Shown piece by piece: positions 6,457-63,409 of a DNA stretch of 64,000 nucleotides. The position numbers and the translations under genes were made by a program. The notes under the pieces were generated by a model. That model was given only the letters and a program-made list of their open reading frames with translations, made no database searches and was not told where the DNA came from. Position 1 is the stretch's first letter. Every line of letters begins with the position of its first letter. The stretch is from Arthrobacter sp. MYb229. Its GTDB lineage: Bacteria > Actinomycetota > Actinomycetes > Actinomycetales > Micrococcaceae. The stretch is taken from NCBI RefSeq assembly GCF_002975405.1, contig NZ_PCPS01000001.1, positions 1,346,730 through 1,410,729 of the forward strand. The letters are read 5' to 3'.

Positions 6457-7347
6457 TTAAAGTACTGGTGGTCTTCCTGCCATAGTCATTCTAAGCACGG
6501 TTGACCATCTAAGCTTAGGCCGGGGTTCTCGATGCCATGGGCTTCCACGCCAGCCAGCGCGCCAACCAGCGACATATTGACTGACAGCAGAACGATTTTT
6601 CCGCATCCTGAGGCACTCTACCAAGAGCCATGAAGTTGGATAGATCCAGCACAAGGGAGCCGGCAGATTACGACGTGCCAGCCAAACCCTGTTCCGTGCG
6701 TTTAGCCGGTAGAACTCATCATGGCGACGCGGGTCCACGACCGGATGGCCGATCCTCATGTCTCCGGCATACCAAACATAATGTCCGGTGTCCCAGATAC
6801 GCCAAGCAAGTTCAATTCCCTCATGCGCATACCAAAAACCTGCGGCCCAGCCGCCTGTTTGGTCAAACAAGGCACGTGGGCTGACCAAACAGGTCTCCCC
6901 CACGTGGAAAACCTTGCTCGGTTCTTCTGCCGTGCGCTTATTCAGGCGAGGTATCCAACGGGTGGGATCATTCTCGAAAGATTTCGGATCGGTAATGCGC
7001 GGCTGCAGCAAGCCCATCTTCGGATAGCTCTTGAAACGCTCGACTGAGGTAATCAAGAAATCATCGTCAAGGAACCAAGAGTCATCATCTAGAAAGCAGA
7101 GGAACTCGCCTTCTACTAGACCCACACCAGCATTGCGGCCCGCAGGAATTCCTAGATTCTCCTGAAGGAAATGCGTCTTTATGGAGGCAGGGATATCAAC
7201 AGGATCCCAACCATTGCCAACGACCACGGCATCAATCTGTACAGACTCCTGCGCGAGCAGGGAGTCCAAAGCGCGCCGCAACTCTGCGGGGCGGTTTCCC
7301 ATGGTCAGCACTACGACACCGACGCGAGGCAATTCCTTTTCAGACAT
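6457..7347 (-). CDS. Family 2 glycosyltransferase
   Basis: A 296-residue GT-A fold enzyme. The N-terminus VGVVVLTMGNRP begins the nucleotide-binding half, ENLGIPAGRNAGV is the usual conserved turn, and FLDDDS carries the DxD-type metal ligand. HEGIELAWR in the second half matches the catalytic-base region of rhamnosyl- or galactofuranosyl-transferase-like GT2 proteins. No membrane segment is obvious, so it probably acts at the cytoplasmic face on a lipid-linked intermediate. It lies between tagD and the CDP-alcohol transferase gene, 18 bp from the latter, and is probably in the same operon. Donor and acceptor sugars are unknown. Confidence 0.85.
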   Translation of the reverse strand: MSEKELPRVGVVVLTMGNRPAELRRALDSLLAQESVQIDAVVVGNGWDPVDIPASIKTHFLQENLGIPAGRNAGVGLVEGEFLCFLDDDSWFLDDDFLITSVERFKSYPKMGLLQPRITDPKSFENDPTRWIPRLNKRTAEEPSKVFHVGETCLVSPRALFDQTGGWAAGFWYAHEGIELAWRIWDTGHYVWYAGDMRIGHPVVDPRRHDEFYRLNARNRVWLARRNLPAPLCWIYPTSWLLVECLRMRKNRSAVSQYVAGWRAGWRGSPWHREPRPKLRWSTVLRMTMAGRPPVL

Positions 7348-7365
7348 CTTCCTCCTCCCTTCGAA

Positions 7366-8190
7366 CTAACTGGCTTTAAGCCGTGTCGAAGCCATGTTCG
7401 CAATGAAATGACCAACGTTAACCAGGACGGTTGCAGGCAAGAGAATCCAAATCATCCATTTCTCGGCAACTCCAGGAATACCTACCAGAGCAGAGATGAT
7501 TGAGCAGGCCAAAATTACCAAGCTGAGCTCCACCGCGTGAAGCATCCGGTGGAAGGGCAAGAAGCGGGCCAGCGAACGCAAGCGGCCCACGAGGGATGTC
7601 ACCGGAATTGAACGCGCATCTGCGGTATCTGGAAGTTTAGCCAGTCCAGCCATGCTCCGGGCGGCATGCACCATCAGTGACTGGGACCTGTTCAATACCA
7701 GCAACACAGCCAGGCACCCGGCCATGAACAACGTTGGCCAGGCTTGAGCTGCATTCGCTCCGGCTGCCGAGAGTTCTAGGAAAACGCGATATCCCAGGGC
7801 AATAGGTATCAGGGCTTCGGTCGTATGGTGACCGACCATGTCGATAAAAATGCCACGTGGTGACTGCGTACCACGCCACCGAGCCACTTCTCCGTCCGAG
7901 CAATCAAAGTAGAGCTGGACTTGCGATAGAACCACAGCGAGAATCGGGCCCCAGATCCCCGGGATCAGCAGTGCCAGGGACATGCACCAACCGGCAAGAA
8001 TCATCAACCCGGTAACGCCGTTGGCCGAGATTCGGGTGCGGACCAACACCGCGGTCAGATAGATCGAGATATGGCGCAGGTACAGCTCAGCCGTCCAGTG
8101 CTCCGCGTTCTTGCGCGCGCGGACTTCAGGGGGTTGGCAAACGGCCCGCAGCTCTTCTAGCGTGGGCCGAGCCGGGCGTTCGGCGATCAT
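7366..8190 (-). CDS. CDP-alcohol phosphatidyltransferase family membrane protein, altered motif
   Basis: A 274-residue polytopic membrane protein of the CDP-alcohol phosphotransferase family, which exchanges CMP of a CDP-alcohol for an acceptor alcohol. The family motif DxxDGxxAR is complete at residues 96-104 (DCSDGEVAR), followed by G113 and D117 at the right spacing, but the fourth acidic position is histidine (H121, in DMVGHH) instead of the usual catalytic aspartate. At least four hydrophobic segments follow and precede it. The start is the ATG at 8190, which overlaps the stop of the upstream gene in an ATGA arrangement; a longer frame exists upstream but would run deep into that gene. 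Within a glycerol-phosphate polymer operon it may move a CDP-activated polyol onto a lipid or glycan rather than make a phospholipid. That role is inference. Confidence 0.82.
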   Translation of the reverse strand: MIAERPARPTLEELRAVCQPPEVRARKNAEHWTAELYLRHISIYLTAVLVRTRISANGVTGLMILAGWCMSLALLIPGIWGPILAVVLSQVQLYFDCSDGEVARWRGTQSPRGIFIDMVGHHTTEALIPIALGYRVFLELSAAGANAAQAWPTLFMAGCLAVLLVLNRSQSLMVHAARSMAGLAKLPDTADARSIPVTSLVGRLRSLARFLPFHRMLHAVELSLVILACSIISALVGIPGVAEKWMIWILLPATVLVNVGHFIANMASTRLKAS

Positions 8191-9224
8191 TTGATTCGCC
8201 CTTTGTCGAGAGTGCTTCCTGCTCCCATTGCGCGGCCCTTGATATAGCCGGCGGCCCATGGAAGGTGGATGGCCGGGAAGGTGGCTGCGGTAAGCAGCTT
8301 TTCTTTCAGGCCTTCTCCCTTGGCCCGGAAGCCGGCGAGCAAAGTGCACGCGCCGTAGAGAACCGGAATCGATTTACTGAGCGTCAGCAGGATATTGACT
8401 GACTTCGGAAGTCTTTCACCGGCCAACGGCTGAATTACTGCTGAAGCTATCCCCGCGCTAATCCCGGCAAGGAGCAATGGTGGAAGGTCATGGCGCAACG
8501 ACTTGCCCTCTGGGAAACGACGCGCAATTTCCCCGCGCCAAGTTCCGGAGGCAAATGACTGTTTAATCAGGGACGGGAAGTTGTCTCTCGGGTAATAGCC
8601 AACCTTGAGCTCCGGATCAAACCAGACCTTATGCCCCGCCTGGCGGATCCGGAGGCATAGCTCCCAGTCTTGGGCACGCCACATGTTTTCGTCGAAATAG
8701 CCCACTTCTTCAAAAACTTCGCGACGGAAGATACCTAGGTATGCCGACTCCGCTTCGCCCTCGGGTGCGCCTGAATGATATGCAGGTCCGCCGAAACCGA
8801 ACTTGGAGTGATATGCCGCGGCAATCGCCCTCTGGAGGGCCGTGCGCCCACGGGCGTCCATCAGGCCACCCACGTCGTGTGCGCCAACACGATTCAACGT
8901 TTCAATGCCCTGCTTCGTGTAGGAAGCGGGCAGCTCGCTATGCGCATCGACGCGAATAACAATCGGATTAGTCGAGTTGCGGATGGCGAGATTCAACGCA
9001 ATCGGGGTTCGTCCTTGCGGGTTATCAACCAAAGTGATGCGAGAGTCTTGAGCCGCTAGGCGCTGTGCGACAAGATTCGTTTCGTCCGTGCTTGGACCTA
9101 GTGCAAGAACAAGCTCCTTGTCACCTTCGTAGTCCTGCGCCAAGATAGAAGCGACGGCCTCGTCGAGGTAATCTGCTTCGTTCAGCACAGGCATTACGTA
9201 GGCAACGCCAGGATATTCAGTCAT
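8187..9224 (-). CDS. Family 2 glycosyltransferase with C-terminal membrane segments (ExoA-like)
   Basis: A 345-residue GT2 enzyme. It begins YPGVAYVMPVLNE, the standard start of the GT-A fold, and carries RVDAHSELP with a DxH-type metal site near residue 115 and AQDWELCLR with the likely catalytic base near 205. Two or three hydrophobic segments near the C-terminus (LLLAGISAGIASAVI, VLYGACTLLAGF) suggest membrane attachment, as in ExoA-type succinoglycan transferases. It starts 8 bp after the exporter ATPase gene and its stop overlaps the start of the CDP-alcohol transferase gene, so translation is probably coupled. Substrate unknown. Confidence 0.85.
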   Translation of the reverse strand: MTEYPGVAYVMPVLNEADYLDEAVASILAQDYEGDKELVLALGPSTDETNLVAQRLAAQDSRITLVDNPQGRTPIALNLAIRNSTNPIVIRVDAHSELPASYTKQGIETLNRVGAHDVGGLMDARGRTALQRAIAAAYHSKFGFGGPAYHSGAPEGEAESAYLGIFRREVFEEVGYFDENMWRAQDWELCLRIRQAGHKVWFDPELKVGYYPRDNFPSLIKQSFASGTWRGEIARRFPEGKSLRHDLPPLLLAGISAGIASAVIQPLAGERLPKSVNILLTLSKSIPVLYGACTLLAGFRAKGEGLKEKLLTAATFPAIHLPWAAGYIKGRAMGAGSTLDKGRIK

Positions 9225-9232
9225 CCGTCCCT

Positions 9233-10120
9233 TTATTTCTTCTTCTTCAAGTGTGCTTGGTACGCCTTGATAACGGCATCGGGATCGCCGTCCATTTTCT
9301 GGACGCCCTTTTCAATCCAGATGCAGCGATTGCAGGTTTCCTTGATCGAGTTCATCGAATGCGAAACGTTGAAGATCGTTCCCGCGTTCTCACGAATTTC
9401 GCGGATTTTCGCTTCACTGCGTTTTTTGAACTTCGCGTCACCGACCGCCAAGGCTTCATCAATAATCAAAATGTCGTGCTGCTTCGACGCCGCGATCGCA
9501 AATTTAAGTCGCGCGCTCATGCCGGAAGAGTAGGTGCGCATTGGCAAATCGATAAATTCTTCAAGTTCGGCAAACTTGATGATGTCTTCGCGCATCTTCT
9601 CGACTTCTTGACGGTTGTAGCCAAGGGCGAGTCCACCAAGAGTAATGTTCTTATCTCCCGAGAGTCCGGGGATAAGAGCAGCGCCGACGCCCAAAAGGCT
9701 GGGACGCGATCTTGCAAACACACTTCCGGAAGCAGGAGGAGTCAAGCCCGTAATGGCCTTAAGCAACGTCGACTTACCTGAACCATTTGATCCGATCACG
9801 CCAATTGACTCATTCTCATAAGCCACGAAGGAGATCCCCTTCAATGCATGAACCGTTCTAACGCCTCGCATATTCGACTGGAGCAACCGGCGAGCACCTG
9901 AAGCTCCCACAGCTTTGCCGCTTGAATACACCTGGTACTTGACGTGGAGATTGTCCACCATGACTACCGGTTGGCGGCTCGAATCGATATTTAGGTTCGG
10001 ACTCTTAACGTCATCTGCGGACACCACATCGATAAATGAGGTGTCATCTGAAAAAATCCGTTCTGGTTCATAGTCTGGATGCAATTCAGGATTTATTAGG
10101 TCATCAAAACTAATCCGCAC
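9233..10120 (-). CDS. tagH: ABC transporter ATP-binding protein, polysaccharide/teichoic acid export
   Basis: This 295-residue ATPase powers export of the finished polymer across the membrane together with the TagG-like permease. Walker A is GSNGSGKST, the ABC signature is YSSGMSARLKFA, and Walker B is ILIIDEALAVGD, the form typical of TagH/Wzt exporters rather than importers. An N-terminal extension of about 70 residues precedes the fold. I place the start at the GTG at 10120: a GAGGAG site lies ten bases upstream, inside the end of tagG, and the two genes overlap by 11 bases. A longer frame to 10198 would overlap tagG by 89 bases. It lacks a C-terminal carbohydrate-binding domain. Confidence 0.92.
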   Translation of the reverse strand: MRISFDDLINPELHPDYEPERIFSDDTSFIDVVSADDVKSPNLNIDSSRQPVVMVDNLHVKYQVYSSGKAVGASGARRLLQSNMRGVRTVHALKGISFVAYENESIGVIGSNGSGKSTLLKAITGLTPPASGSVFARSRPSLLGVGAALIPGLSGDKNITLGGLALGYNRQEVEKMREDIIKFAELEEFIDLPMRTYSSGMSARLKFAIAASKQHDILIIDEALAVGDAKFKKRSEAKIREIRENAGTIFNVSHSMNSIKETCNRCIWIEKGVQKMDGDPDAVIKAYQAHLKKKK

Positions 10121-10958
10121 GGCCGTAACGCTCCTCAGCTTTCCAGAAGTAAATAAGCCCGACCACCAGAGTAGCGATGGCCCAGATGCCCACGACAAGC
10201 CACGCGTGTGGATCGTAAGGGCTATTGTCCATAATCATTGCTCTTGCGATCGTCAGAGTTTGGTAAAGCGGGTGATAGTCAAATATGGCAAGCATCCAAG
10301 GCCATTGATTGAGGATACGATCGACGCTGAATAGCACGCCTGAGGTATAGAAGAGAACACGTCCGATCAACGGCAATATGTTCGTAAAATCTCGGATGTG
10401 AACCGTTATTCGTGCACATATTAGCGCAATACCCATATTGAAAACGCTAAATAGGAGCACCAGTGGAATGATCACAAACCACGTCCATTTTGGAGCGGTT
10501 CCTAGGATGAGGGCATAAATGAACATCACACCAAGCATTGGAACAAGAGTCAAGAAATTCTGGGTGACTTGAGCTACAGGAAGTGACAGTCTTGGGAAAG
10601 CCAATGATTGTACAAGCGCGGTATTTCCGGTGATCGATTTTGCCCCGCCATTCATCGACGTAGTGAAGAACTCGAAGAGGAACACTCCGATAACCACGAA
10701 TACAGGGAAATCAGCAGGACGGTTCCCGCCCTGCAAGATGCCAAAGATGAATCCATACATTAGGGCATTGAACGTAGGTTTCAGGACAACCCAAACCATG
10801 CCCAGACGGTTACGTTCGTTCTGAGACTGAAGTCGGGCCTTGGCAAGTTCATAAATGAACTCGCGACGACTCCACGTCTGCTTCAGGTAATCGACCAATG
10901 ACGGTCTTGCCCCTACTCGGTGCAAGCCGTACTTCTCGGCCTCCTCCGCAACTGTCAT
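10110..10958 (-). CDS. tagG: ABC-2 type permease, polysaccharide/teichoic acid export
   Basis: A 282-residue integral membrane protein with six predicted hydrophobic segments, matching the TagG/Wzm/KpsM permease family. The N-terminal region has the family-like string LAKARLQSQNERNRLGMVWVV, which places the first amphipathic helix before the membrane. I choose the ATG at 10958, ten bases after an AGGA site; a TTG at 10964 is also possible. It is the first gene of the export pair, and a roughly 145-bp non-coding stretch upstream may hold its promoter. With TagH it should flip a lipid-linked polymer to the outer face. Confidence 0.92.
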   Translation of the reverse strand: MTVAEEAEKYGLHRVGARPSLVDYLKQTWSRREFIYELAKARLQSQNERNRLGMVWVVLKPTFNALMYGFIFGILQGGNRPADFPVFVVIGVFLFEFFTTSMNGGAKSITGNTALVQSLAFPRLSLPVAQVTQNFLTLVPMLGVMFIYALILGTAPKWTWFVIIPLVLLFSVFNMGIALICARITVHIRDFTNILPLIGRVLFYTSGVLFSVDRILNQWPWMLAIFDYHPLYQTLTIARAMIMDNSPYDPHAWLVVGIWAIATLVVGLIYFWKAEERYGRAD

Positions 10959-11102
10959 GTGCAAAATGTCCTCTTGTCGAATGCTAACTACTACTTGAAT
11001 TCGTAAGCACAGATGATCAAAGTCTAGTTTACGAGTGGTGGTAACACGTGATTTCGCGCTTCGTACGCGAGTGCAATTGCTCCCACTGACGCTTGAGCAC
11101 GT

Positions 11103-12164
11103 CTATTCTGGCGGGTACTCAGCCAAATATTCGGCCATCGTATCGGTTTGCAGCGCCTCTGAAATTTGAGCGACTGCTAGTTCGCTGGCAAGTTCGATTG
11201 ACTGACCATCGGCACTAGTTGAGCTTCCCGCAGTCGGCATCGTGAACATCTCCAGGTTTTCGGTGTCCACATTTTTAAGTTGCATTCCTAAACCAACCAT
11301 GGTCGCAGCGTCGAATTGCGAGTCGAAAGTGAGGTAGGGCGAAACCTTGTCGACAATATCGTAGAGTTTCACCGGATTGGTGAGCGTATCGTTGGACAGC
11401 ATCTGATTCACGGCCGCAACGAGGAATGTCCGTTGGTTCTTGACTCGCTGGTAATCACCGTCGCTGAAAGACTTTCGTTCGCGTACGAAACGCAAGGCGC
11501 GATCCCCTTCAAGAGTGATCTCTCCTGCTGGGTAGAAGTAGTCGGTGTCATTCGCAGTGAAGGGTATCTCATTGGAAACCGTAACGCCGCCCAAGGCCGT
11601 GGAAAGCTCTCGGAAGCCCTCAAAATCAATCATCGCCACGTGATCAACTTTCGTGTCGAATAGACCTTCCACGGTTTGCATCAGCAGCGGTACCCCTCCA
11701 AGCGACACCGCAGCGTTGAGCTTGTTCTGGCCATATCCTGGGATATCTACCCACATATCTCTGACCAAAGACATGATGTAAATTTGCTCTCGGTTTTCTG
11801 GAATATGCACCAGCATCATGGAGTCACTGCGCTGATTCACAGCACCGTCTAGCGCCGCTGCGTCCGATTGCTCATCATCAGCATGATCTACACCTAGCAT
11901 CAAGATATTCATGGAGCCATCGTCTGGATCTTTGACGGGTCGCGAACTCTGCTGCTCATCGGTGTAGTCGATGGACAAGGTATTGGTTTTCGAATTGAAC
12001 TGATGTTGAAGACTAAATAGGTAGAACCCTGCACCCAAGGCTGCAACGACTGCAACCGCAACTACGGATAACAGTACGCCGCGCAGGCGGCGCTTCCGCC
12101 GTCGCTCCACACCGTAGCGAGCGCTACGAGACGTAAAGCTTTCACTTGTGTTTTGGGTATTCAT
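11103..12164 (-). CDS. LytR-CpsA-Psr (LCP) family cell-wall polymer ligase
   Basis: A 353-residue membrane-anchored protein. A short basic cytoplasmic tail (ERRRKRRLRG) is followed by one membrane helix at about residues 28-50, then the extracellular LCP domain. The domain shows LMLGVDHAD, RSDSMMLVHIP, SLVRDMWVDIPGYGQNKLNAA and RFVRERKSFSDGDYQRVKNQ, including the arginines that bind the polyprenyl pyrophosphate. LCP enzymes transfer lipid-linked teichoic acids or polysaccharides to peptidoglycan. It lies directly upstream of the tagGH exporter genes, so it is the likely attachment enzyme for the polymer made here. A second paralogue is at 19600-20646. Confidence 0.93.
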   Translation of the reverse strand: MNTQNTSESFTSRSARYGVERRRKRRLRGVLLSVVAVAVVAALGAGFYLFSLQHQFNSKTNTLSIDYTDEQQSSRPVKDPDDGSMNILMLGVDHADDEQSDAAALDGAVNQRSDSMMLVHIPENREQIYIMSLVRDMWVDIPGYGQNKLNAAVSLGGVPLLMQTVEGLFDTKVDHVAMIDFEGFRELSTALGGVTVSNEIPFTANDTDYFYPAGEITLEGDRALRFVRERKSFSDGDYQRVKNQRTFLVAAVNQMLSNDTLTNPVKLYDIVDKVSPYLTFDSQFDAATMVGLGMQLKNVDTENLEMFTMPTAGSSTSADGQSIELASELAVAQISEALQTDTMAEYLAEYPPE

Positions 12165-47596: not shown

Positions 47597-48781
47597 CTAG
47601 ATGCTTGTTGCTCGCATCATGTCATCCGCATCGGATAGACGGGAATCAAATTCTTCAATTCGCTCCCCCACGCCAAGCAGCTCCGCAATGGCAGCTACAG
47701 TGCGTTCAGAAGCTTTCCCGTCGCCGTAAGGATTAACCGCATTGGCCATTTCCTCATAAGCGGCAGAATCATTCAACAACTCCGAAACCGAATCGAAGAT
47801 CCGCTGTTCGTCGGTTCCGATGAGTCGAACGGTACCAGCCGTCACGGCTTCCGGACGCTCGGTATTCAAGCGCATTACCAACACTGGCTTACCGAGGCTT
47901 GGCGCTTCTTCCTGCACTCCACCGGAGTCGGTCAGGACCACGGTTGAGGCATCGATGATTCGAGTGAATTCACCATAAGCCAGCGGCTCCGTCAAAGTAA
48001 CGTTTGGAATACCATCGATTTCCGGAAGCAAAGCCTCACGTACCGCAGGATTGCGATGCAAGGGAAGGATAAACTGAATATCGGGCTCTGCTACGGACAG
48101 GCGCGCAATCGCTCGGCCAATCCCGCGCATCGGCTCGCCTTGGTTCTCGCGACGATGAGTCGTCACCAAAACAATTCGCTTGCCGGAGTTCACGATTTCT
48201 TCAAGTTGTGGATCCGTGAAGGGGATCTTCTTTTCAACCACGGTCAGCAGTGCATCGATAACACTGTTGCCAGTGATAACGATGTCCTTGCTGTTGAAGG
48301 TCTCGCGCTCGAGGTTACGCTTGCTCAGCGAAGTTGGCGCCAAGTGAAGGCTGGCAATCTGGCTGGTGAGCTTGCGATTGGCTTCCTCTGGGAATGGCGA
48401 GAAAAGGTCGTAACTACGCAGACCAGCCTCGGCGTGTACCACTGGAATTCCTCTGTAGAAAGCTGCGATAGCTCCTGCGGTAGAGGTGGTGGTGTCTCCC
48501 TGGACGACTACGGCATCCGGCTTTTCTTTTTCAAAGATTTCATCCAGACCTGCAATGGTCTTAGTCAGCAAACCGTTGAGGGTCTGTCGCGGCTGAATCA
48601 CGTCAAGGTCATAGTCTGGCTTGATGCCAAACAGCTCGTTGACCTGATCCAGCATCTCGCGATGCTGCCCGGTAACAACAACTATACAGTCGAAATCTTT
48701 AGCCTCTTTCAAGGCCTTGACGATCGGTGCAACCTTGATGGCCTCGGGACGAGTGCCATAGATCGGCATGATCTTTTTCAT
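47597..48781 (-). CDS. wecB: UDP-N-acetylglucosamine 2-epimerase (non-hydrolysing)
   Basis: A 394-residue enzyme converting UDP-GlcNAc to UDP-ManNAc. IYGTRPEAIKVAPIV, VVTGQHREMLDQV, VVQGDTTTS, HVEAGLRS (here VHAEAGLRS), TTHRRENQG and DSGGVQEEAPSLGKPVLVMR follow in family order. The start is the ATG at 48781 (MKKIMPIYG), ten bases after AAGGT; a longer frame to 48856 overlaps wecC. wecC is 31 bases upstream, so the pair makes UDP-ManNAcA from UDP-GlcNAc. ManNAcA is found in teichuronic acids and capsules. Confidence 0.95.
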   Translation of the reverse strand: MKKIMPIYGTRPEAIKVAPIVKALKEAKDFDCIVVVTGQHREMLDQVNELFGIKPDYDLDVIQPRQTLNGLLTKTIAGLDEIFEKEKPDAVVVQGDTTTSTAGAIAAFYRGIPVVHAEAGLRSYDLFSPFPEEANRKLTSQIASLHLAPTSLSKRNLERETFNSKDIVITGNSVIDALLTVVEKKIPFTDPQLEEIVNSGKRIVLVTTHRRENQGEPMRGIGRAIARLSVAEPDIQFILPLHRNPAVREALLPEIDGIPNVTLTEPLAYGEFTRIIDASTVVLTDSGGVQEEAPSLGKPVLVMRLNTERPEAVTAGTVRLIGTDEQRIFDSVSELLNDSAAYEEMANAVNPYGDGKASERTVAAIAELLGVGERIEEFDSRLSDADDMMRATSI

Positions 48782-48812
48782 TAGGACATCTACCTTGTCA
48801 GAAGAGGGGAAT

Positions 48813-50045
48813 CTAGCGCCAGAGACCGCGGGTGTCAATGACATCCTTGCCTGCAAGCGCAGTGGCGGGAACCGATTTGAACTGATCGTGATCCACCAAC
48901 AAGGTCACAACTTCTGCGGCTTCCAGCGCCTCATCCAACGGAGTCAGGGTGAGGTTCGCAATGCCGTCAAGTTTCTTGGGCAGTGCATCAACGTGTGGTT
49001 CGACAGCCAAGAACTCGATGGTTGGATTCTCTACAGCCAGCTTGCGAGCGATCTCAATGGACGGCGATTCACGCATGTCATCAATGTTCGCCTTGAAGGC
49101 AAGCCCCAATACAGCAACCTTGCCATTAAACGCTGGCGACTTGGTGGCCTGAACTACCTTGTCGATGACCCAGCTTGGCTTGGAGTCGTTGGTTTCACGA
49201 GCCATCCGGATGAGCTTGGACTCCTCCGGAGCAGCGGAAACGATGAACCATGGATCAACCGCGATGCAGTGTCCGCCTACGCCTGGACCAGGCTGAAGGA
49301 TGTTTACACGTGGGTGACGGTTCGCCAAGGAAATGAGTTCCCAGACATCGATCCCGATTTTGTCAGAGATCACCGAAAGCTCGTTGGCGAAGGCAATATT
49401 CACGTCGCGGAACGAGTTCTCAACCAGCTTCGCCATCTCGGCGGTTTTGGCATCGGTAGTCAAAATCGCAGCCTGGCAGAAAACCTCGTAGAGCGCCTTC
49501 GCCTTATCGGCAGCTTCCGGGGTTATGCCGCCAACAATACGGTCGTTGGTCACAAGCTCTTCCATGACGTAGCCTGGCAAAACCCGCTCCGGGCAGTGTG
49601 CCACGAGCAGACTGTCCGTGTTCAGGTCTGGGCGCTTGGCCAAGAGGTAGTCAGCCAGGTGCTGAGTTGCCCCTGGAGGCGAGGTGGATTCGAGGATGAC
49701 CAATTCGCCACCTTTAAGGTTCGGTGCGATACCTTCTGCTGCAGACTCGATGTACGAGAGATCTGCGGTGTAATCATCGTTGAACGGAGTTGGCACGGCA
49801 ACGATGTAGGCTTCGGCTGCAGGAGTCTCGAAGCTGGCGCTGAGGGTTCCTGCGGCAACTGCGGCTGAAACGAATTCACCCAGCGCTGGTTCAACAAATG
49901 GAACTTCGCCCTTGTTGACTGCCTCAACGGTCCGAGGAGTAACATCCACACCCTTGACGATGATTCCCTTAGATGCAAGGATCGCGGCGGTTGGCAGGCC
50001 GATATATCCCAAACCGATGACGGCGACTTCTTTAATGCTGTTCAC
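48813..50045 (-). CDS. wecC: UDP-N-acetyl-D-mannosamine dehydrogenase
   Basis: A 410-residue member of the UDP-glucose/GDP-mannose dehydrogenase family oxidising UDP-ManNAc to UDP-ManNAcA. VIGLGYIGLPTA is the NAD loop, VPTPFNDDY and ESTSPPGATQ are the WecC-type segments, and GPGVGGHCIAVDPWF carries the catalytic cysteine; that WecC pattern (HCIAVDPWF) separates it from Ugd. DDMRESPS closes the C-terminal domain. It is the first gene of the wecC-wecB pair and has a separate upstream region of about 130 bp next to the glycosyltransferase run. Confidence 0.95.
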   Translation of the reverse strand: MNSIKEVAVIGLGYIGLPTAAILASKGIIVKGVDVTPRTVEAVNKGEVPFVEPALGEFVSAAVAAGTLSASFETPAAEAYIVAVPTPFNDDYTADLSYIESAAEGIAPNLKGGELVILESTSPPGATQHLADYLLAKRPDLNTDSLLVAHCPERVLPGYVMEELVTNDRIVGGITPEAADKAKALYEVFCQAAILTTDAKTAEMAKLVENSFRDVNIAFANELSVISDKIGIDVWELISLANRHPRVNILQPGPGVGGHCIAVDPWFIVSAAPEESKLIRMARETNDSKPSWVIDKVVQATKSPAFNGKVAVLGLAFKANIDDMRESPSIEIARKLAVENPTIEFLAVEPHVDALPKKLDGIANLTLTPLDEALEAAEVVTLLVDHDQFKSVPATALAGKDVIDTRGLWR

Positions 50046-51931: not shown

Positions 51932-53107
51932 CTAGTTCTTGCCTTCGCTCGTGACAACTTCGCTGAGCAACTTGGCATAGACTTTGGCTGCTTCGCGCAA
52001 TGACGCGTTTTTCCGCACCCAATGTGAACCATGATTGTAGGTTTTCAGCATGTCCGGATTTTCTGCCAAGTGCTTCAGATGTTGCGTTAGTTCACCAAGG
52101 CTCTGACCGACAACTTGTCCGGACTCGGCAGCGGTGATGATCCCAGCGGCTTCTCCGCGCACTAGGCCTGTAATATGGCGGTCGAGATACAGTAATTCGT
52201 AGAGCTTCGAAGGTACGGTGTGATCGAAGCTTGGCCAGTCGGGTCGTAGTGATACGACGCATGTATCCGCCCAGGCGTAATTTTCCAGAACAAGATCTCC
52301 ATAAACGGACTCACGAAAATCAACGTCTGCATCAAGCTCAGCGGCCAGTTCAATCAAGCGTCGTTTCTCGGTTCCATTGCCTACTATCCTCAGAGAAATC
52401 TTATTGTCGAGAATTTTGGCCGCGTGAATAAGTGTGTCTAAACCTTGGCTCCGACCAATATTTCCGAGATAAAGAACGCGCAACGCTCCATTTCGAGGCT
52501 CGTTGCTTATGTCGGCTTCAGGGCGTTCAATTTCAACTCCGTTGGAAATCGTAGCTACGTTGCTCACCCCGTTCAATCGCATCTTTACTGCGAGGCCACG
52601 CGTCACGGTCACTAGGAGGTCGCTTCGTTTCACCAGATACGACAGCGCATGAGAAACAACCGGCTCCAACCAACGCCATTTCAAGACTTGGGATTCTCGT
52701 AAAAGGTCTGGCCACGCGTCGCGTAGGTCGACAACGAACGGTACACCGCGGATTTTACTGACTACATACCCAACAATCAGCGTCGGTAACGCCGGCACAG
52801 TCGCAACAACAACATCCGGACGGCTTTCATTCAAGGCTGCGGGCACGCTTAATACCGCGTCCGCACCATGCTTGAGGACTTTTCCAACCATGGATTTGGA
52901 TTTACGCAATGAACGATAACGTTTGATGTGGATGCGTTCATTGTCGTTGCGCGACTCGGAAGTTTGAGCTGTGATGCCCCATGGCTGGGGAGCAACCACA
53001 GTTAGTTCATGTCCTAATTTGGTCAATTCATCGGCAATGACGGACCAACGGCGTTGCGGCGGTGAGATTTCAGGAGAAAACGAATGAGTCAGCAACATGA
53101 TTTTCAT
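51932..53107 (-). CDS. Family 4 glycosyltransferase (WbuB-like)
   Basis: A 391-residue GT-B enzyme. It begins KIMLLTHSFSPEISPPQRRW and has VVATVPALPTLIVGY, VVDLRDAWPDLLRES, ISNGVEIERPE, LYLGNIGRSQGLDTLIHAA, RIVGNGTEKRRLIELA and PSKLYELLYLDR, the order seen in WbuB and CapM-type transferases using UDP-linked N-acetyl or amino sugars. It follows the CgeB-type gene with about 50 bases and precedes the next transferase with nine bases. The wecBC pair nearby makes UDP-ManNAcA, a possible donor for one of these enzymes. Confidence 0.9.
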   Translation of the reverse strand: MKIMLLTHSFSPEISPPQRRWSVIADELTKLGHELTVVAPQPWGITAQTSESRNDNERIHIKRYRSLRKSKSMVGKVLKHGADAVLSVPAALNESRPDVVVATVPALPTLIVGYVVSKIRGVPFVVDLRDAWPDLLRESQVLKWRWLEPVVSHALSYLVKRSDLLVTVTRGLAVKMRLNGVSNVATISNGVEIERPEADISNEPRNGALRVLYLGNIGRSQGLDTLIHAAKILDNKISLRIVGNGTEKRRLIELAAELDADVDFRESVYGDLVLENYAWADTCVVSLRPDWPSFDHTVPSKLYELLYLDRHITGLVRGEAAGIITAAESGQVVGQSLGELTQHLKHLAENPDMLKTYNHGSHWVRKNASLREAAKVYAKLLSEVVTSEGKN

Positions 53108-55187: not shown

Positions 55188-58100
55188 CTAGTCAGCTTCG
55201 ATGGCTTTAACCAGTTGAGTCATGATCTTCTTGGAATCGTAGTTTTCCACCGTGAAAGCTCTCGCTTCTTCTACCGATTTGTCGAAGCGCTCTTGGCTTG
55301 AAACGATTCCGGCAATGTGCTTAGCAGCAAGTTGCGTATCGGTAAACAGCCATTCTTCGGGGTAGAGCCACTCAGAACCTGGCCATGCCAATCCAACAGG
55401 AAGTGCGCGGGAAGCAGCACCATCAGCCAAAGTGAAGTGGAAGGACTCAAAATCGCTGGTGGATACCGCAACACCAACCCGCTGATACCACTGGTCCATG
55501 TCGTCGCCCTGCGGGTCGAAGGCTACTGCACCCTTCAGGAGCGGCGACTCGTCGATCCGGGCATACTGAGCCTCATAGAACGCCATCTCTTCGACCCTTG
55601 CGGCCATCCAAGGATAGTCTTCGGGACGTTTCCCCTTCACCCGTAAGGTGAATCGTTCATCGGTAGCACGGAGCTCTTCCAATAGATCTAGGACTAGGTC
55701 AAAACGCTTCATTTGTGGAACCATTCCGACAAATCCCAAGACAAACTTGGAATCAGCGTCCTTTGGAAGATCAAGCTTGCCTGTATCTACCGAGTTCGGA
55801 ATGACATAAGTTTTTTCTTCAGGAATTCCGAATTTTTGGATTGCCATCCCACGAATAAGCTCGCTGACGAAGATCACTCGATCAACTTTCTTGAACTTCA
55901 CCTTGTTAGGGTAGTCGGTGAACAGCTCCTGAGAATGGAAGCGAGTGATCAGCCGCTGGTTTGGTTTGACATGCTTCGAGTACCATGCAAGATTCCCTAG
56001 GGACCATTCGCAAAATATGGTGTCGGCATCTTTAAGTAGTTGCGCACTCAGCTCACTATCATGCTGAGCGTGCCCCGCCCACTGATCTACGCTTAATTGG
56101 TGACCCTGTTCTTCCACGGCCTTCATGATCTGGCCGGCAAATTTCAGGTCGTGACCGGCAACTAAAACGGTTCGATCATTTGGAGCGGTATTCACCGCTG
56201 CGTGTGCTACTCCGCTATCTTGCTGTTCGACGACGCCAAAAGGTCGGCGCAGTCTCAGATGGACTCTGCGTTGTGGGTCATTTGCTTGTTCCATTTTAAG
56301 CCGTGGCGAGGCCGCCGTCGGCTCATCCTTGAGCCACAATGGAAGCCCACGTACGTTTAGATCTCGTTCAGACGCTTCAACGCTAGAGGCTCCACCATAC
56401 TGGTATGCGATCACTAGGTCTTCCAGCAAATGAGGGTCCCCGAGCACTTGCTGTGCTCGTGAAACAGAGACCTGAGACTGGCGCAGGCCATCCGGTCCCA
56501 CAGCATGAATTCCGTGGGCTTTCAAGATATCGATGGCAGACGAATTTTCTTCGGTCTGTGCAGTATAGATCTCGCCGGGGCGAATCGATGAAGCCAAGAT
56601 CTGCTCTGCAACTTCACCATCGACAGTTTCAAGCTCGAGTCCAATCGTTGGCAGCGTTGGGATTTCAACGGCGATCCCGGCCATACGAAGTGCAAGTGCC
56701 AGACGGTGGTGCGCCAAGTGCTTCTGGAAAGTGACGCGCATCGGCGCCCACGCGTCCAAAACGCGGTCGGCTTCACTTTGCATCCAAAGTGAGATGATTA
56801 ATTCAGATTCTTCGCTGCTACGGACTACGGGGACGGTGTCGTCAAACATCCAAGTGACGCCGAAGCTCTTACCGCTGATCTGTGGGGTTCCACAAGCTGC
56901 AATTTCAAAGACGCGTCGGGAGAACATGGTCGGTGATCCATTGACCGAGTTGACGTTTACATGGACTGGATGAGATTTGTAAGCATCAACCATCTCGTCA
57001 TAGGTCAGTCCCCCTTGTACAAATGGCTGTAGCGCAGCAGGGAATTTATATGGGGATTCCGGGTTATCGGCCTGGCGATCATAGATCGTCAACCCCTGCT
57101 TGCGAGCACCTTCAAGGATGGTCCGCAATTCTTGAGAGCGTTCCGCGTAACGGTCGCCGTAGTACGATCCGCCATATGCTACGGAATGGGAATACGGACG
57201 GTTTGTCCCCAACGGGTTGTGAATTTCAGCTTGAGCCCAGAATGGAAGGCTTCCCAAGGCGCGCATGTACCCGCCGCGGTTCTCCCAATAGTCTTCAAGA
57301 CAATTGGCATCCGTGGTCAAAACCACGTCGAAGAGTTTTGCTGTCCTGCGGAAGCGATTGAAGTGAACGGGATCTTCCTTGTTCCAGAAAATCGTAGGAA
57401 TACCGTTCTTACGGCAATATTTTGTGAGCGCGTCAAGGTCGGAACATTGGTCATCGTCGTAGTAACCGACCTTACGCGTCCAAGTTTCGGAATTACCGGC
57501 CCAAGCGGACTCCACGAAGAGCACGTCTACAGGCTGTGCAGAAAGGACTTGCCGCCAGTTCTCCGGTGTTGGAGCCACTAGACTCACTTCACGTTTGAGC
57601 GTCGAAGTCGTAAACTCGTCGGCAATAATTGCCATACGAAGGTCCTTGAGATTCTTACCCGCCACCGGACGCTTTTGGACGCTGCGCATTTTCTCCGTAA
57701 AGGTCTGCGCAACGATAGGCCACGTCCGGGTTTCTACCGTCCACTGACGCGCTCTACGGCCGATGTTCTGAGCTAGCTTGGGATCGCTTGCCAGCTTCGT
57801 GATCTGTTCACTGAGGGAATCTACGTTGTCGGCCGCAAATAGCAAACCGCGTTCGGAATCCGTCCCAAGCAAAGTCGCAATAGGCGAGACATCTGAACCA
57901 ATAACGGGACGTCCGGCAGCCATGGCTTCGATTGGTTTCAATGGTGAGACGAGCTCGGTGACTATATTCGATTTACGCGGGCAAACCACTGCATCGAAGA
58001 TCGCCAGGTAGTCGTTGATATCCTCGTTTGGTACTCGTCCGGTAAATCGGATGCGTTCCCCAAGACCCAGCTCCGCGACTTGCTGTTCTAAGGCCGGCAG

Positions 58101-59615
58101 CGCATTACCGTCGCCAACGATCAGCGCGCCAACGTGGTCAAATTCTTCCGGCAGGCCAGCTACCGCCTCAATAAGAAGGTCCAGACCTTCATAGTTAACC
58201 AAACTTCCAGCATATCCAAGCAGGAATTCTCCAGCAAACTTCTTATTAGCCGCAGTGGAGCGCTCCACTGGCAATGGAACATATTGGAAAATATTCGCTG
58301 CATTAGGCAGAATCGAAATATTCGACTTCGTCGCGCCGCGTGAAACTAGCTCATCACGAACCTCTTCGGTGATTGCGAACACCTGGTCAGCTTCATTTGC
58401 TACGAGCGTTTCAAGCTTGCGGGTAAGGTCAAAGCGTTCGGAGGTAAGCCAAGTTTCATTGTTCGCGGCGGCTGTGATTTCCCAAAGTCCACGCACCTCG
58501 TAAATGAATGGAATACCGAGCCGACGGGCAGCGATGAGAGCCGGAAGAGCCGTGATGTGATTTGACGCCGAGACAATTACAGCCGGACGGTTCATCATTG
58601 CTTCGCGTACGTAGATATCGGCAGCTAGCTGGATGAACTTATCCAACGGATCATTTCGAAGCGATACACCTGGGTTAAAATGAGTCTTGACGCCCTGGAA
58701 GTCGCGGATCATACGCTTCTGAGATGGTGCCTTCTTAGTGACTTTCGAGTCCCACGGGTAGCCGGGACGCGCAGCAATAAATAGATCAATGCCTGCATCC
58801 GCTACTGCCTTGGTCAGCCCAGTAGTACGTGTCGAATATCCGTTACTGTTGAACTCCCCTGTGCTGTGTGCGCAATACATCACCTTGTCTGCTTGCGGGA
58901 CATAAGCAGGAGAAGAAGTTCTTGGGGGAATTGCTGGGAGCGCCGTTTGCAACCGCGCTTGGCCCATGACTTGCAGGTGCAGTGGCCCAAAATTCTTCGG
59001 TGAATCTGAGCCCGCCATCAACTCAGTTAATGCTTTCGCTGGCTCAGTAATTTGTCCTAAGTCACGGTACTTTTCGACTTCTAATTTCGCCAATGTCCGA
59101 AGATTAGTTACGAGATCATCGTTAGCATTTGAAAAAGTATTTTCAGGAGAGCGCTCAGTAACGGCCAATGCCAACTGCTTGGAAGCATTCTGCGAGGTAT
59201 CTGGTAACGAAGAAACAGGTTTCTTGCTGAAAGGGCTCTTCAACCCACGCGCTGCTTTAACCACCGGATGTGATTTCAGATTCTCGTATGCAGTCTTGAA
59301 TTTTTCCGCGCGTGCGTGTTCCTTATTTAGTTGTTTTTTTAGGATCGACGCTTCTTGGCTGACCTTTCTGCGATCTACTTCTGACTGGTTTACGGAACGT
59401 TCAAGCCGAACTACTAGGCCTTCGAGTTTTACACTCCGACTGCGCAGATCACTGTTCTCCGCTTTGAGCTTCATGCTAAGAGAACGGTATTCAAGAATGT
59501 CTTCAAGCATAGTGAGTTCGACATCTTTATCGAGGTTCGCATACTCCTGCTGCATGCTATGTAGCTGTGCTCGTGTAGCTATCGGCTGCGCTGCCTTCCG
59601 ATTTGACCGTTTCAA
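55188..59615 (-). CDS. Giant three-module glycosyltransferase with N-terminal coiled coil
   Basis: A 1475-residue protein. Residues about 20-115 form a coiled coil rich in Leu, Glu and Lys. A family 4 GT-B module runs about 245-640 (SNGYSTRTTGLTKAV, YEVRGLWEITAAAN, LPNAANIF, SPLKPIEAMAAGRP). A CgeB-like module spans about 655-970 (LFVESAWAGNSETW near 699, FWNKEDPVHFNRF near 743, VNVNSVNGSPTMFSRRVFEIAACG). A third GT-B module lies at about 1170-1475 (IPNSVDTGKLD, LGFVGMVPQMKRFDLVLDLL, STSDFESFHFTLADGAASRALPVGLAW, the last shown in part as STSDFESFHFTLADG). The first two modules look like those in the two neighbouring proteins. The start is TTG at 59615 behind GGGAGC. The coiled coil may serve assembly or chain-length control; function is inferred only. 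Confidence 0.88.
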   Translation of the reverse strand: MKRSNRKAAQPIATRAQLHSMQQEYANLDKDVELTMLEDILEYRSLSMKLKAENSDLRSRSVKLEGLVVRLERSVNQSEVDRRKVSQEASILKKQLNKEHARAEKFKTAYENLKSHPVVKAARGLKSPFSKKPVSSLPDTSQNASKQLALAVTERSPENTFSNANDDLVTNLRTLAKLEVEKYRDLGQITEPAKALTELMAGSDSPKNFGPLHLQVMGQARLQTALPAIPPRTSSPAYVPQADKVMYCAHSTGEFNSNGYSTRTTGLTKAVADAGIDLFIAARPGYPWDSKVTKKAPSQKRMIRDFQGVKTHFNPGVSLRNDPLDKFIQLAADIYVREAMMNRPAVIVSASNHITALPALIAARRLGIPFIYEVRGLWEITAAANNETWLTSERFDLTRKLETLVANEADQVFAITEEVRDELVSRGATKSNISILPNAANIFQYVPLPVERSTAANKKFAGEFLLGYAGSLVNYEGLDLLIEAVAGLPEEFDHVGALIVGDGNALPALEQQVAELGLGERIRFTGRVPNEDINDYLAIFDAVVCPRKSNIVTELVSPLKPIEAMAAGRPVIGSDVSPIATLLGTDSERGLLFAADNVDSLSEQITKLASDPKLAQNIGRRARQWTVETRTWPIVAQTFTEKMRSVQKRPVAGKNLKDLRMAIIADEFTTSTLKREVSLVAPTPENWRQVLSAQPVDVLFVESAWAGNSETWTRKVGYYDDDQCSDLDALTKYCRKNGIPTIFWNKEDPVHFNRFRRTAKLFDVVLTTDANCLEDYWENRGGYMRALGSLPFWAQAEIHNPLGTNRPYSHSVAYGGSYYGDRYAERSQELRTILEGARKQGLTIYDRQADNPESPYKFPAALQPFVQGGLTYDEMVDAYKSHPVHVNVNSVNGSPTMFSRRVFEIAACGTPQISGKSFGVTWMFDDTVPVVRSSEESELIISLWMQSEADRVLDAWAPMRVTFQKHLAHHRLALALRMAGIAVEIPTLPTIGLELETVDGEVAEQILASSIRPGEIYTAQTEENSSAIDILKAHGIHAVGPDGLRQSQVSVSRAQQVLGDPHLLEDLVIAYQYGGASSVEASERDLNVRGLPLWLKDEPTAASPRLKMEQANDPQRRVHLRLRRPFGVVEQQDSGVAHAAVNTAPNDRTVLVAGHDLKFAGQIMKAVEEQGHQLSVDQWAGHAQHDSELSAQLLKDADTIFCEWSLGNLAWYSKHVKPNQRLITRFHSQELFTDYPNKVKFKKVDRVIFVSELIRGMAIQKFGIPEEKTYVIPNSVDTGKLDLPKDADSKFVLGFVGMVPQMKRFDLVLDLLEELRATDERFTLRVKGKRPEDYPWMAARVEEMAFYEAQYARIDESPLLKGAVAFDPQGDDMDQWYQRVGVAVSTSDFESFHFTLADGAASRALPVGLAWPGSEWLYPEEWLFTDTQLAAKHIAGIVSSQERFDKSVEEARAFTVENYDSKKIMTQLVKAIEAD

Positions 59616-59747
59616 CGAAGAAGCTCCCTATAAATAGTTATCTGATCCAGCTATTAGTCTAGCGGTTCGACAGTAAAACAAGGACTTTGACAATTCCCTG
59701 AAACAGACCCCAGTAAACTATACGGAACTAATAGATTTACCCTAGGA

Positions 59748-61479
59748 CCTGTTTCGTACCCTGGTTTGTGATTGAGAAACTCAACAGGATCATGACCTGA
59801 TGGTTTGTTTCCTCATCGTGCCCGAAATACGCACTAATAAATAGGACCTCGGTACCCTGTAGCGATGGGTTCCCGATTTATCGGCAAGCTCAGCTCAGGT
59901 TCTGGAGCTGTCGCCGTGCAAATCGTGGACCAAGCTGGACGCACCGCCATCTCCGTGGTGCGCCTCGGCTCAGCGAGTGCCGACGCCGAACTAGCACTGT
60001 TGCTGCGCACCGCCCCGCAACGCTTGCATCCAGGCAACAAGCCTTCGACTTCGGCGATTTGGAACAAGAACCCGCATTCCTAGTCGAGGTTGCTGACTGC
60101 ACAAAGTACGCCGAACTGCCTGATTTTAATCTTGACCGCAGAAGACCCCGAGTCGGTTGCACAGGCACCGCGAAAGTCGTTGTGCCCCCTAAGGCGGAAC
60201 TGTGGGAAATCTTCACCTCAGCCTATGCACGTCTTTGGTTCGAAATCCTTGACGACGAAGGATTTCGTGCCATGGTGCAAGCTAGACTCCTCGAGCCGAC
60301 GTCCAAATCAGACACAATCAGAGTGCACCGCGACATCGCCGTACCGCACCCGTCCCTGCGGAACCTTTCTTCGTAGCTGGCATCGCTGCCACGACAAAGA
60401 CTACAAAGGCACCCTGGCCACAGCCATGTTCGCCCTCCACACGCAAGCCGTGGAACTCGAAGCAATGATCATGTACGAAGTCACCACCCTTCACTTCGAA
60501 TCGAAAAAGAAGATGACCTCCGCAAAATCCGCATGAGCAAAAGATTATCGGGTAGACCCCCAAATCCAAGTAGGGATTCTGGTGGATCCGGTAGGCTTCC
60601 AGCTGGAATTGCATATTTTTGCCGGGAACACAGCCGAGACCACCACGATCGTTCCGGTAGTCCAAGCGTCTCAGGAACGGCACGATATTGCCAACATGAT
60701 GGTCGTCGCTGATGCTGGCATGCCCTCCGACGTGAACCTGATCGCGTTGAAAGACGCCGGATTCAAATTCATTATCGGTTCGCGTATAGCCAATGGGCCT
60801 TATGCAGGAACATTTGGATACGAAGCGCACCCGGTTCGCCAACGGGCATATCCTGGAATCCATACGACCGATGGGACAACGTTCTAGTGCTCGCGAGGGG
60901 CGAAAGATTTATCAGTGGTCCGCGAAACGTTTCGTCACTGACAATCGGAACATAAATCTGAAGGAACGCCGAGCCATGGGTATTGCCGAAGACACCAGCC
61001 AAATGTGTAAAGCAAGATTCGTGCAAACGACTAGGGCGAGGCCTGTAGTGGATGAAGCCAGGATCGAGCGAGCCCGAATGCTGGCCGGACTCTATGGCTA
61101 GTTGACGAATACCGATCAGTCAGTGATAAATGGCCAGACGGTCCTCGGCTCATACCATGAACTCTGGCAGGTTGAAGCGTCCTTCCGCATGACCAAGACT
61201 GACTCTTCCGATCGGTCAGAGTTCCATCGAGACGAGGACGCCAACGATGCTCATTGACCGTGGTGTTCGCCGCGTTGGCGATGGGCAGGCATGTGCAGGA
61301 GCTATCTGGGATGAGTTTGAAACGGATTATCACTGATTTGCAGGTCGTTCGTTCGGCGAAAGTCAAGGTCAATGGTGATTATGTGGTGATTCCTGCTGAC
61401 GTTTCTGTGGAGCTCCGACGACTATTTGCGAAGCTCAAGCGTGGATAAAGTACTTACTAGGACTTTGGCACGGAACAGG
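59748..61479 (+). mobile_element. Decayed IS1634-type insertion sequence
   Basis: A 1732-bp element bounded by imperfect inverted repeats: CCTGTTTCGTACC at 59748-59760 and GGCACGGAACAGG at 61467-61479 (the complement CCTGTTCCGTGCC agrees at 11 of 13 bases). It holds a broken transposase gene. No clear target duplication is seen. It begins about 130 bp before the 1475-residue glycosyltransferase gene and ends about 155 bp before ugd. Confidence 0.8.
59865..61448 (+). pseudogene. Broken IS1634-family transposase
   Basis: The protein can be followed in order through changing frames: GSRFIGKLSSGSGAVAVQIV from 59865, QEPAFLVEVAD near 60065, ARLLEPTSKSDTIRVH near 60280, HRCHDKDYKGTLA near 60380, VTTLHFESKK near 60480, DPVGFQLELHIFAGNTAETTTIVP from 60582 (shown in part as NTAETTTIVPVV), VADAGM, then RTRFANGHILESI from about 60830 and VVFAALAMGRHVQELSGMS from 61260. 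At least five frameshifts or stops break it (near 60030, 60350, 60510-60545, 60795 and 61110-61250). It cannot make an active enzyme. Family assignment is from remembered IS1634-type sequences. Confidence 0.85.
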
Positions 61480-61633: not shown

Positions 61634-62800
61634 ATGAAGATAGCAGTTGTTGGAACTGGTTATGTTGGCATGTCAATCGCTGCCTTGCTGGCACGCCATC
61701 ACCATGTCATTGCATTAGATATCAACGAGCAACGCGTTGGGCTCGTCAATCAGAAGCTCTCGCCAATCGCTGACGAAGAGTTGACCCGGTACCTAAACCA
61801 CGAAGAACTCAAGCTATCGGCGACTACTGTTTCCGCCGAAGCCTACGATGAAGCAGACTTTGTCATCGTCGCGACACCAACAAATTATGACCCCGAAACC
61901 AATCATTTTGACACTTCCTCGGTCGAGTCGGTCATCTCAGACGCTGTTACCCTAAATCCAAAAGTAAACATCGTCATCAAATCAACTGTCCCAGTAGGCT
62001 TTACCAGCGACCTCCAGAAGCATCACCCTGGAACGAAAATAATATTTTCCCCAGAGTTCTTGCGTGAAGGACGTGCCCTATACGACAATCTCCATCCTTC
62101 TCGAATCGTTGTCGGAGACCAAAGTGAGCACGGAGAGAAATTTGCACAACTTCTCCTAGAAGGCAGCCTGGAGAAGCACGTCCCAATACTTCTGACCGAC
62201 CCGACAGAAGCAGAAGCAATCAAGTTATTCTCCAACACATATCTAGCTCTGAGAGTTGCGTACTTCAATGAGTTGGATACATATGCAACATCGCGTGGCC
62301 TAAATTCCGCTCAGATCATCAATGGTGTTGGACTGGATCCACGCATTGGAAGCCACTACAACAATCCGTCTTTTGGCTATGGCGGCTATTGCCTTCCGAA
62401 GGATACGAAACAGCTTCTGGCTAACTACGACGAAGTCCCTCAGAACTTAATTTCGGCGATTGTTGATGCGAATAGAACCCGTAAGGACTTCATTGCGGAC
62501 GATATCCTGGCTCGCAAACCGGAAACAGTTGGTATCTATCGTCTAGTTATGAAGGAAGGTTCGGACAACTTCCGACAATCCGCGATTCAAGGCGTAATGA
62601 AGCGAATCAAGGCCAAAGGCGTAGAAGTTATAGTTTACGAACCGACCTTGGACGCTGACGAATTCTTCCACTCCAAAGTAACGAAAGATTTTGATTCTTT
62701 TGTACGCGAATCGGATGTCATCATCGCTAACCGTCAATCAAAAGACCTAGAATTAGTTTCCGATAAAGTGTACACGCGTGATATCTACGGACGTGATTAG
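61634..62800 (+). CDS. ugd: UDP-glucose 6-dehydrogenase
   Basis: A 388-residue enzyme oxidising UDP-glucose (made by GalU) to UDP-glucuronate. [18 protein letters not shown] is the NAD loop, [15 protein letters not shown] the second signature, [11 protein letters not shown] the substrate loop, and [15 protein letters not shown] carries the catalytic cysteine. Size and motifs match the short enterobacterial-type Ugd. It looks A/T-richer than its neighbours and sits alone on the plus strand between insertion-sequence remains, which suggests acquisition by transfer. UDP-glucuronate could feed the adjacent glycosyltransferases. The ATG at 61634 has only a modest AGAG site. Confidence 0.95.
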
Positions 62801-63282: not shown

Positions 63283-63409
63283 CCTAGCCCGGGTATTTCA
63301 TGAAGGCCGGTAGTCATTAACTGACTTAAAAGATGAAAAGGTGACCTGAACAGGGAAAATAGGAGTTGTTGAAGCTTCCAAAATACCCGTACAAAGGATC
63401 ACCTTTTCT

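Follow-up and report, generated by a model that had tools for sequence, protein, structure and literature searches.

Architecture of P1

A 64,000-nucleotide stretch of the Arthrobacter sp. MYb229 genome (contig NZ_PCPS01000001.1, positions 1,346,730 to 1,410,729 of the forward strand; hereafter the window) contains a gene, here called P1, that encodes a large protein with three glycosyltransferase (GT) modules. The P1 open reading frame (ORF) is free of stops across 1475 codons, and its chain has a mass of ∼160 kDa. Scans for promoters and terminators around P1 gave no clear excess over shuffled sequences. As shown in Table 1, P1 shares its cluster and strand with WecB and WecC, uronic-acid nucleotide-sugar genes of the kind found in teichuronic acid loci. 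Because both proteins score above their NCBIfam cut-offs, UDP-N-acetylmannosaminuronic acid (UDP-ManNAcA) is the predicted precursor. The true start of WecB probably lies ∼26 codons inward, as its relatives have 394 residues.

Two AlphaFold2 models of P1, with 44 aligned rows each, cover residues 1–660 and 645–1475 at a mean pLDDT (predicted local distance difference test) of 86.9 and 90.0, respectively. In the predicted structure, modules 1 and 3 adopt a GT4-type GT-B fold, and module 2 matches PF13524 (CgeB) at 83.8 bits against a curated cut-off of 25. The match to TIGR04063 (PEP-CTERM/XrtA glycosyltransferase) reaches 268 bits and falls below the curated cut-off of 442. The original prediction, made from the DNA letters alone, had described P1 as a coiled coil joined to three GT modules; the gene, the predicted coil and the GT4-like, CgeB and GT-B modules are borne out, but an additional α/β domain at residues 985–1125 had been overlooked.

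GT4 donor sites usually contain an R/K pair, and E-x7-E is a GT4 motif; in P1 the latter reads E554-x8-E563 in module 1 and E1390-x7-D1398 in module 3. Alignment revealed that the motif residues are kept in all three GT modules: they are invariant across 18 aligned rows, and in an alignment of 44 rows E554 and D1398 fall just short of invariance. The rows of the VIA-align set span almost module 3 alone, and module 2 and residues 985–1125 are barely covered there. P1 is 74–95% identical to its counterparts in three congeners, and the ratio of nonsynonymous to synonymous substitution rates (dN/dS) was 0.017–0.059 for its modules in the five of nine module comparisons with a computable dS. P1 carries two or more GT modules on a single chain, a trait of multi-GT polymerases that depend on ATP-binding cassette (ABC) transporters.

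Table 1. Features of P1 and of its locus, in window coordinates.
Feature	Positions	Strand	Description	Basis
P1, three-module glycosyltransferase gene	55188..59615	minus	1475 aa, TTG start; full-length relatives exist	
Ribosome-binding-site-like AGGGAG	59624..59629	minus	8 bases ahead of the P1 TTG	read off the sequence
P1 residues 32–114	59274..59522	minus	83-residue helix, predicted coiled coil	AlphaFold2
P1 residues 115–163	59127..59273	minus	short basic helix (117–125) and disordered linker (126–163)	AlphaFold2
P1 residues 164–240	58896..59126	minus	helical stretch (helices 164–224) preceding module 1	AlphaFold2
P1 module 1, residues 241–650	57666..58895	minus	GT4-like GT-B; E554 and E563 kept	domain profiles, alignment, AlphaFold2
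P1 module 2, residues 655–980	56676..57653	minus	CgeB/PF13524 (GT-B ∼660–980); R900, R901 and E904 invariant	profile, alignment, AlphaFold2
P1 residues ∼985–1125	56241..56663	minus	additional α/β domain, possibly a decayed GT2 without the DDDD motif of P2	weak evidence
P1 module 3, residues 1147–1475	55191..56177	minus	GT4-type GT-B fold; K1303, E1390, D1398	alignment, AlphaFold2
P2	53157..55070	minus	CgeB module and GT2 domain with DDDD motif, 637 aa	profiles
WcaI-like GT4	51932..53107	minus	391 aa	profiles
P3	50177..51922	minus	GT4 (TIGR04063-like), 581 aa	profiles
WecC	48813..50045	minus	UDP-N-acetyl-D-mannosamine dehydrogenase	NF008286, 560 bits (cut-off 459)
WecB	47597..48856	minus	UDP-N-acetylglucosamine 2-epimerase	TIGR00236, 464 bits (cut-off 210)
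Wzt/Wzm-like ABC-2 exporter	9233..10964	minus	candidate exporter (inferred), in a wall-teichoic-acid-like locus	sole such pair found in the window
LytR-CpsA-Psr (LCP) wall ligase	11103..12164	minus	candidate (inferred)	

Association of module 3 with uronate-sugar genes

Searching with module 3 alone gave a match in 62 of 394 genomes of the class. From the 61 other genomes we sampled 40, half of them the top 20 rows and half hand-picked from the remainder, and took ∼20 kb around each match, three regions being shortened by contig ends to 5.5, 11.0 and 17.1 kb. A WecB- or WecC-like gene lay within ∼10 kb of module 3 in 37 of the 40 loci, and both were present in 29; excluding three fused loci, the corresponding counts were 35 and 28 of 37. 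The loci also held a module-1- or P3-like GT4 (30/40), LCP (15/40) and Wzt (12/40). As a control, none of 20 shifted regions drawn from 20 of the sampled genomes contained WecB or WecC, and loci around the PF02397 initiating transferase of exopolysaccharide synthesis contained one or the other in 1/20 and both in 0/20; the PF02397 loci were hand-picked among the highest-listed matches, and the 20 genomes concerned overlap the test set only in part.

A separate two-motif search, which favoured loci with modules 2 and 3, retrieved 76 named loci, and because of that preference the counts are descriptive and constitute no test. Three-module fused proteins were found in 48 (35 Actinomycetota and 13 Pseudomonadota), and CgeB and module 3 were encoded by separate adjacent genes in 13 (7 Bacillota, 4 Pseudomonadota, 1 Acidobacteriota and 1 Hydrogenedentota); 15 were of other kinds. 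WecB or WecC was present in 48 of the 76 and Wzt in 42, the figures among the 48 fused loci being 34 and 27, respectively. By score, WecC exceeded 350 bits in 44 loci, WecB 400 bits in 30 and Wzt 100 bits in 42, and LCP was found in 13. In several relatives the Wzm/Wzt genes adjoin the P1-type gene, and in 7 of 8 Bacillota loci a WecC-like gene and Wzm/Wzt accompany the set. Two Bacillota WecC-like proteins that were scored reached 431 and 403 bits, under the N-acetylmannosamine (ManNAc) cut-off of 459, and GalU was confirmed in the single Bacillota locus examined.

Distribution and apparent exchange of P1

P1 was matched at E ≤ 1e-100 in 35 of 196 genomes of the family, representing 15 of 31 genera; in five of these genomes, the best segment spans P1 incompletely. 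Glutamicibacter arilaitensis has an orthologue of 1477 residues. In the genus of M. terreus, one of eight genomes has a near-full-length match. Of the 18 genomes of the host genus, nine have P2 and four have P1, each of these four together with P2. In three other P2 genomes, a module-3-domain protein of 1663–1672 residues lies directly beside P2 (with a GT2 domain by Pfam in the one examined), and in two others a CgeB protein and a module-3 protein lie ∼4 and ∼15 kb from P2 (again with a GT2 domain in the one examined). The WcaI-like, P3, WecC and WecB genes are near P2 in the genomes retrieved; in genome G004 the retrieved stretch stops at P3. The pattern in the genus is one of a fixed ManNAcA core with a variable multi-GT protein, and it looks like serotype-type exchange.

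Further rearrangements were seen in related loci. Four proteins of 1223–1501 residues (in L097, L122, L129 and L048) are permuted, with module 3 ahead of CgeB, and three of the four have a GT4 fragment between the two. A second case of gene fusion in the locus is that of the WcaI-like GT4 with P3, which form one protein of 992–1067 residues in three relatives (L045 7087-10290, L052 234-3212 and L053 15175-18174). In genome G015, WecC and P2 are each split into two overlapping ORFs (L041 6366-7599 and 10713-12625); therefore, the locus may be in decay in this genome, or its sequence may contain errors.

Proposed function of P1

Because three GT modules with kept motif residues lie in a polysaccharide locus, building of a repeat unit by one polypeptide with several active sites, as originally predicted, is plausible; the accompanying idea that P1 measures chain length is unsupported (see below). 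We propose, at a probability of roughly 0.55, that P1 is a cytoplasmic, exchangeable polymerase with multiple active sites that builds the repeat unit of a teichuronic-acid-like, predicted ManNAcA-containing wall polysaccharide, which would probably be exported via Wzm/Wzt. Judged by family, WecB and WecC would supply UDP-ManNAcA, and the WcaI-like GT4, P3 and P2 may make a fixed inner part on a lipid carrier. The P1 modules would then each add, in turn, one linkage of the repeat to a single chain, following the module-per-linkage rule of WbdA-type polymerases, and the N-terminal rod and short basic helix could oligomerise P1 and hold it at the membrane or at partners. The finished chain would be moved out by a Wzm/Wzt ABC exporter, for which the pair near the teichoic-acid-like genes is the candidate, and an LCP protein would join it to the wall. 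P1 occupies an exchangeable place in the locus, and its exchange is predicted to alter the polymer, as in serotype loci. If P1 is such a polymerase, a concrete and testable gene set is tied to a teichuronic-acid-like polymer in Micrococcaceae, and multi-GT polymerases, best known from Gram-negative O-antigens, would also occur as swappable cassettes in Gram-positive walls.

Several observations weigh against this proposal. Module 1 lacks the usual GT4 R/K pair and reads GSLVNYEG. No Wzm/Wzt pair lies beside P1, the sole pair found in the window being 44 kb away, and none was found within 40 kb around P1 in each of the three congeners; on the right, the contig itself stops where the window does. 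Many of the 37 module-3 loci hold only distant WecB/WecC relatives (in one distant locus that was scored, the dehydrogenase reached 250 bits versus the ManNAc cut-off of 459 and the epimerase 283 versus 210), and so the link is to N-acetylhexosamine (HexNAc)-uronate sugars generally and to ManNAcA only for the nearer relatives. Moreover, the association covers the module-3 family and its genes, not their chemistry. The 76 loci, chosen with patterns from both modules, had suggested that CgeB and module 3 form an obligate pair, a notion we rejected: CgeB exceeded 100 bits in just 4 of the 40 loci chosen by module 3 alone, three of them fused, and hence modules 2 and 3 are not obligate partners. 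Finally, the teichuronic acid synthetase subunits of Micrococcus luteus, at 54 and 52.5 kDa in a 440-kDa complex according to the text cited from PMC3005890, are far from the ∼160 kDa of P1.

A broader and more tentative reading, which we hold to be somewhat improbable as a whole, is that P1 belongs to a group of interchangeable mega-polymerase cassettes and that module 3 is the hallmark of a family of HexNAc-uronate polymerases spanning several phyla. In Actinomycetota and Halomonadaceae, module 3 would be joined to GT4 and CgeB in one protein; in Bacillota the modules would be encoded by neighbouring genes, and in other Arthrobacter and Kocuria proteins they would be permuted. If true, it would identify genes for teichuronic acid polymerisation in Micrococcaceae and for serotype-like switching in Gram-positive walls. 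The kinds of parts are known; what appears to be new is that they are combined in an exchange system of a Gram-positive bacterium and linked there to uronate genes. In the Creative Commons-licensed PubMed Central literature, no paper was recognised, by listing or abstract, as being about P1. An anti-phage role was also considered and rejected, as PADLOC gave no match for P1, P2 or P3.

The strongest competing explanation assigns the backbone, the ManNAcA chain, to the fixed core (P2, P3, the WcaI-like GT4 and WecBC) and not to P1, which would instead attach a side chain or an outer block that varies between strains. That P2, P3, the WcaI-like GT4, WecC and WecB stay together while their companion multi-GT proteins vary in the genus would be expected from such a division of labour. 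However, of the 13 fused relatives from Pseudomonadota, 12 have WecC or WecB close by, in loci that gave no P2 match and one weak P3 match (39 bits), and so P1-type proteins accompany ManNAcA genes without the core. We therefore regard a side-chain role as possible but unlikely.

Less likely still is that some P1 modules, such as module 1 or residues 985–1125, are non-catalytic and serve in binding or as a scaffold. Besides the missing R/K pair of module 1, the E-x7-D of module 3 in place of E-x7-E is in keeping with this, as is the region equivalent to residues 985–1125, which lacks the DDDD motif of the P2 GT2 domain in 51 of 51 fused rows, although a DxD pattern occurs somewhere in it in 20 of the 51. 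Against it, the motif residues are invariant or nearly so in both alignments, and all three GT modules are strongly conserved. For residues 985–1125 themselves we suggest, from sequence comparison, a decayed GT2 domain. A first hhalign comparison with GT2 gave 86%, but CgeB tails were included; the trimmed comparison gave 9.6% and a score of 24.6, the best of 40 column shuffles scoring 14.0. BLASTP of residues 985–1125 against the GT2 domain of P2 gave no match.

The coiled coil of P1 and the ruler question

Coil proteins with GT modules are known from ABC-dependent O-antigen loci, according to the portion of PMC11231755 cited here, and the original prediction had likened the rod of P1 to WbdD. 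The predicted 83-residue helix aligns with three congeners over 83 columns without a gap, at only 47–54% identity, and such a gap-free yet drifting coil would fit a spacer or scaffold. These features also lend something to the view that the rod is a molecular ruler that measures chain length in the manner of WbdD or WbbB. In WbdD-type rulers, however, the terminating enzyme sits at the far end of the coil (parts of PMC11231755 and PMC3482155), whereas in P1 only 31 residues precede helix 32–114 and no Pfam domain was found there. Furthermore, among the Actinomycetota rows examined, the residue at which the coil ends varies from 68 to 130, in part because of the choice of start codon. A composition test called a coil-like stretch in 28 of the 35 fused relatives from Actinomycetota and in none of the 13 from Pseudomonadota, in which the coil is missing or another GT4 module takes its place. 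Over a stretch of 84 residues, the heptad periodicity of the P1 coil did not reach significance, and only 3 of 17 rows showed it clearly. Because nothing catalytic precedes the coil and no Pseudomonadota fused relative has a coil-like stretch, the ruler reading is unsupported, and we consider it very improbable.

Age of the P1 modules

The motifs that P1 has in common with P2 and P3, which the original prediction had noticed, are real, and identity to these neighbours is 32–34%, but the motifs are old. We scored module profiles built from 18 fused proteins, on which P3 reached 256 bits and P2 257 bits. Both neighbours were outscored by distant copies: eight Bacillota CgeB rows scored 348–366 bits and four GT4 rows outside fused proteins 405–419 bits. 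Similarly, the genome yielded a single module-3 paralogue, which lies on a different contig and scored 244 bits, under eight Bacillota rows (315–384 bits).

Quick module trees gave the same picture. They were thinned to 82 of 127, 53 of 118 and 56 of 87 rows, after duplicate-locus rows (eight for modules 1 and 2, seven for module 3) and the window's own overlap (L036) had been left out; matches below 100 bits or of 230 residues or fewer were also omitted. All 17 P2 rows of the CgeB tree grouped in a single clade (99*), separate from that of the fused proteins, and module 2 of P1 was placed in a starred set of 28 rows comprising fused, cut and permuted proteins of Actinomycetota and Pseudomonadota. 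The GT4 tree likewise united all 15 P3 rows in a single clade (100*). The P2 and P3 module clades each span several genera, and the splits of P2 and of P3 from P1 are therefore older than the genus. Among 7990 scored candidates, 471 proteins matched P1 at E ≤ 0.001. On this comparison of sequences, the P1 architecture is old, and its modules are old parts common to several phyla, not recent copies of neighbours. The scores and trees accordingly leave hardly any room for the proposal that the locus grew as neighbouring genes were duplicated and fused, despite the shared motifs.

Comparison with known systems

P1 resembles the WbdA/WbbM-type polymerases of ABC-transporter-dependent O-antigens, as described in part of PMC11231755, in having several GT modules per chain, in modules being apportioned differently among proteins and, in its relatives, in the nearness of the Wzm/Wzt genes. 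It differs in its setting, an actinobacterial wall-polymer locus with ManNAcA genes, in its GT4-CgeB-GT4-like set of modules and in having no Wzm/Wzt beside it in the genus; moreover, P1 is known here from its sequence, and its product is predicted. WbdD, the ruler and terminator (described in part of PMC3482155 and PMC11231755), shares a long helical rod within a polysaccharide enzyme. Unlike that of WbdD, the P1 rod is N-terminal to the GT modules, is absent from many relatives and carries no methyltransferase, kinase or other terminator at its far end.

Among Gram-positive systems, the teichuronic acid synthetase of M. luteus likewise comes from the Micrococcaceae; the cited text of PMC3005890 describes the polymer as one of ManNAcA and glucose, synthesised at the membrane by transferases of two types. 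The teichuronic-acid-like utr locus of Streptomyces, as far as it is described in the cited text of PMC13274773, is also an actinobacterial uronate-polymer locus with variable gene sets and TarS-/TarM-like transferases, and its polymer differs in consisting of 2,3-diacetamido-2,3-dideoxymannuronic acid (ManNAc3NAcA) and N-acetylgalactosamine (GalNAc) and in being linked to teichoic acid. The same 2025 paper terms teichuronic acids, described decades ago, poorly characterised and reports that the Streptomyces polymer is a receptor for an antibacterial toxin; switching could therefore matter in attack by other bacteria.

Other features of the window

A wall-teichoic-acid-like locus (332-12164) lies 43–44 kb from P1 and comprises a TarS/glycerophosphotransferase protein, a second glycerophosphotransferase, the Wzm/Wzt pair and LCP. 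On the other side, the remnant of an insertion sequence (IS) transposase, in three plus-strand frames (59991-61445), lies between P1 and the Ugd gene (61634-62800); its pieces are 46–76% identical to a DDE_Tnp_1 protein on contig C5 of the same genome (L055 48-1541). The contig that carries P1 stops at the right end of the window, and the first 81 bases of C5 match window positions 63284-63364 in reverse at 97.5%. C5 also encodes a 587-residue module-3-domain protein (L055 5739-7502) beside a GT2 protein and a hexapeptide acyltransferase. Since congener G001 has a module-3 protein ∼2 kb from P1, this region of C5 is possibly the continuation of the P1 locus across an assembly gap.

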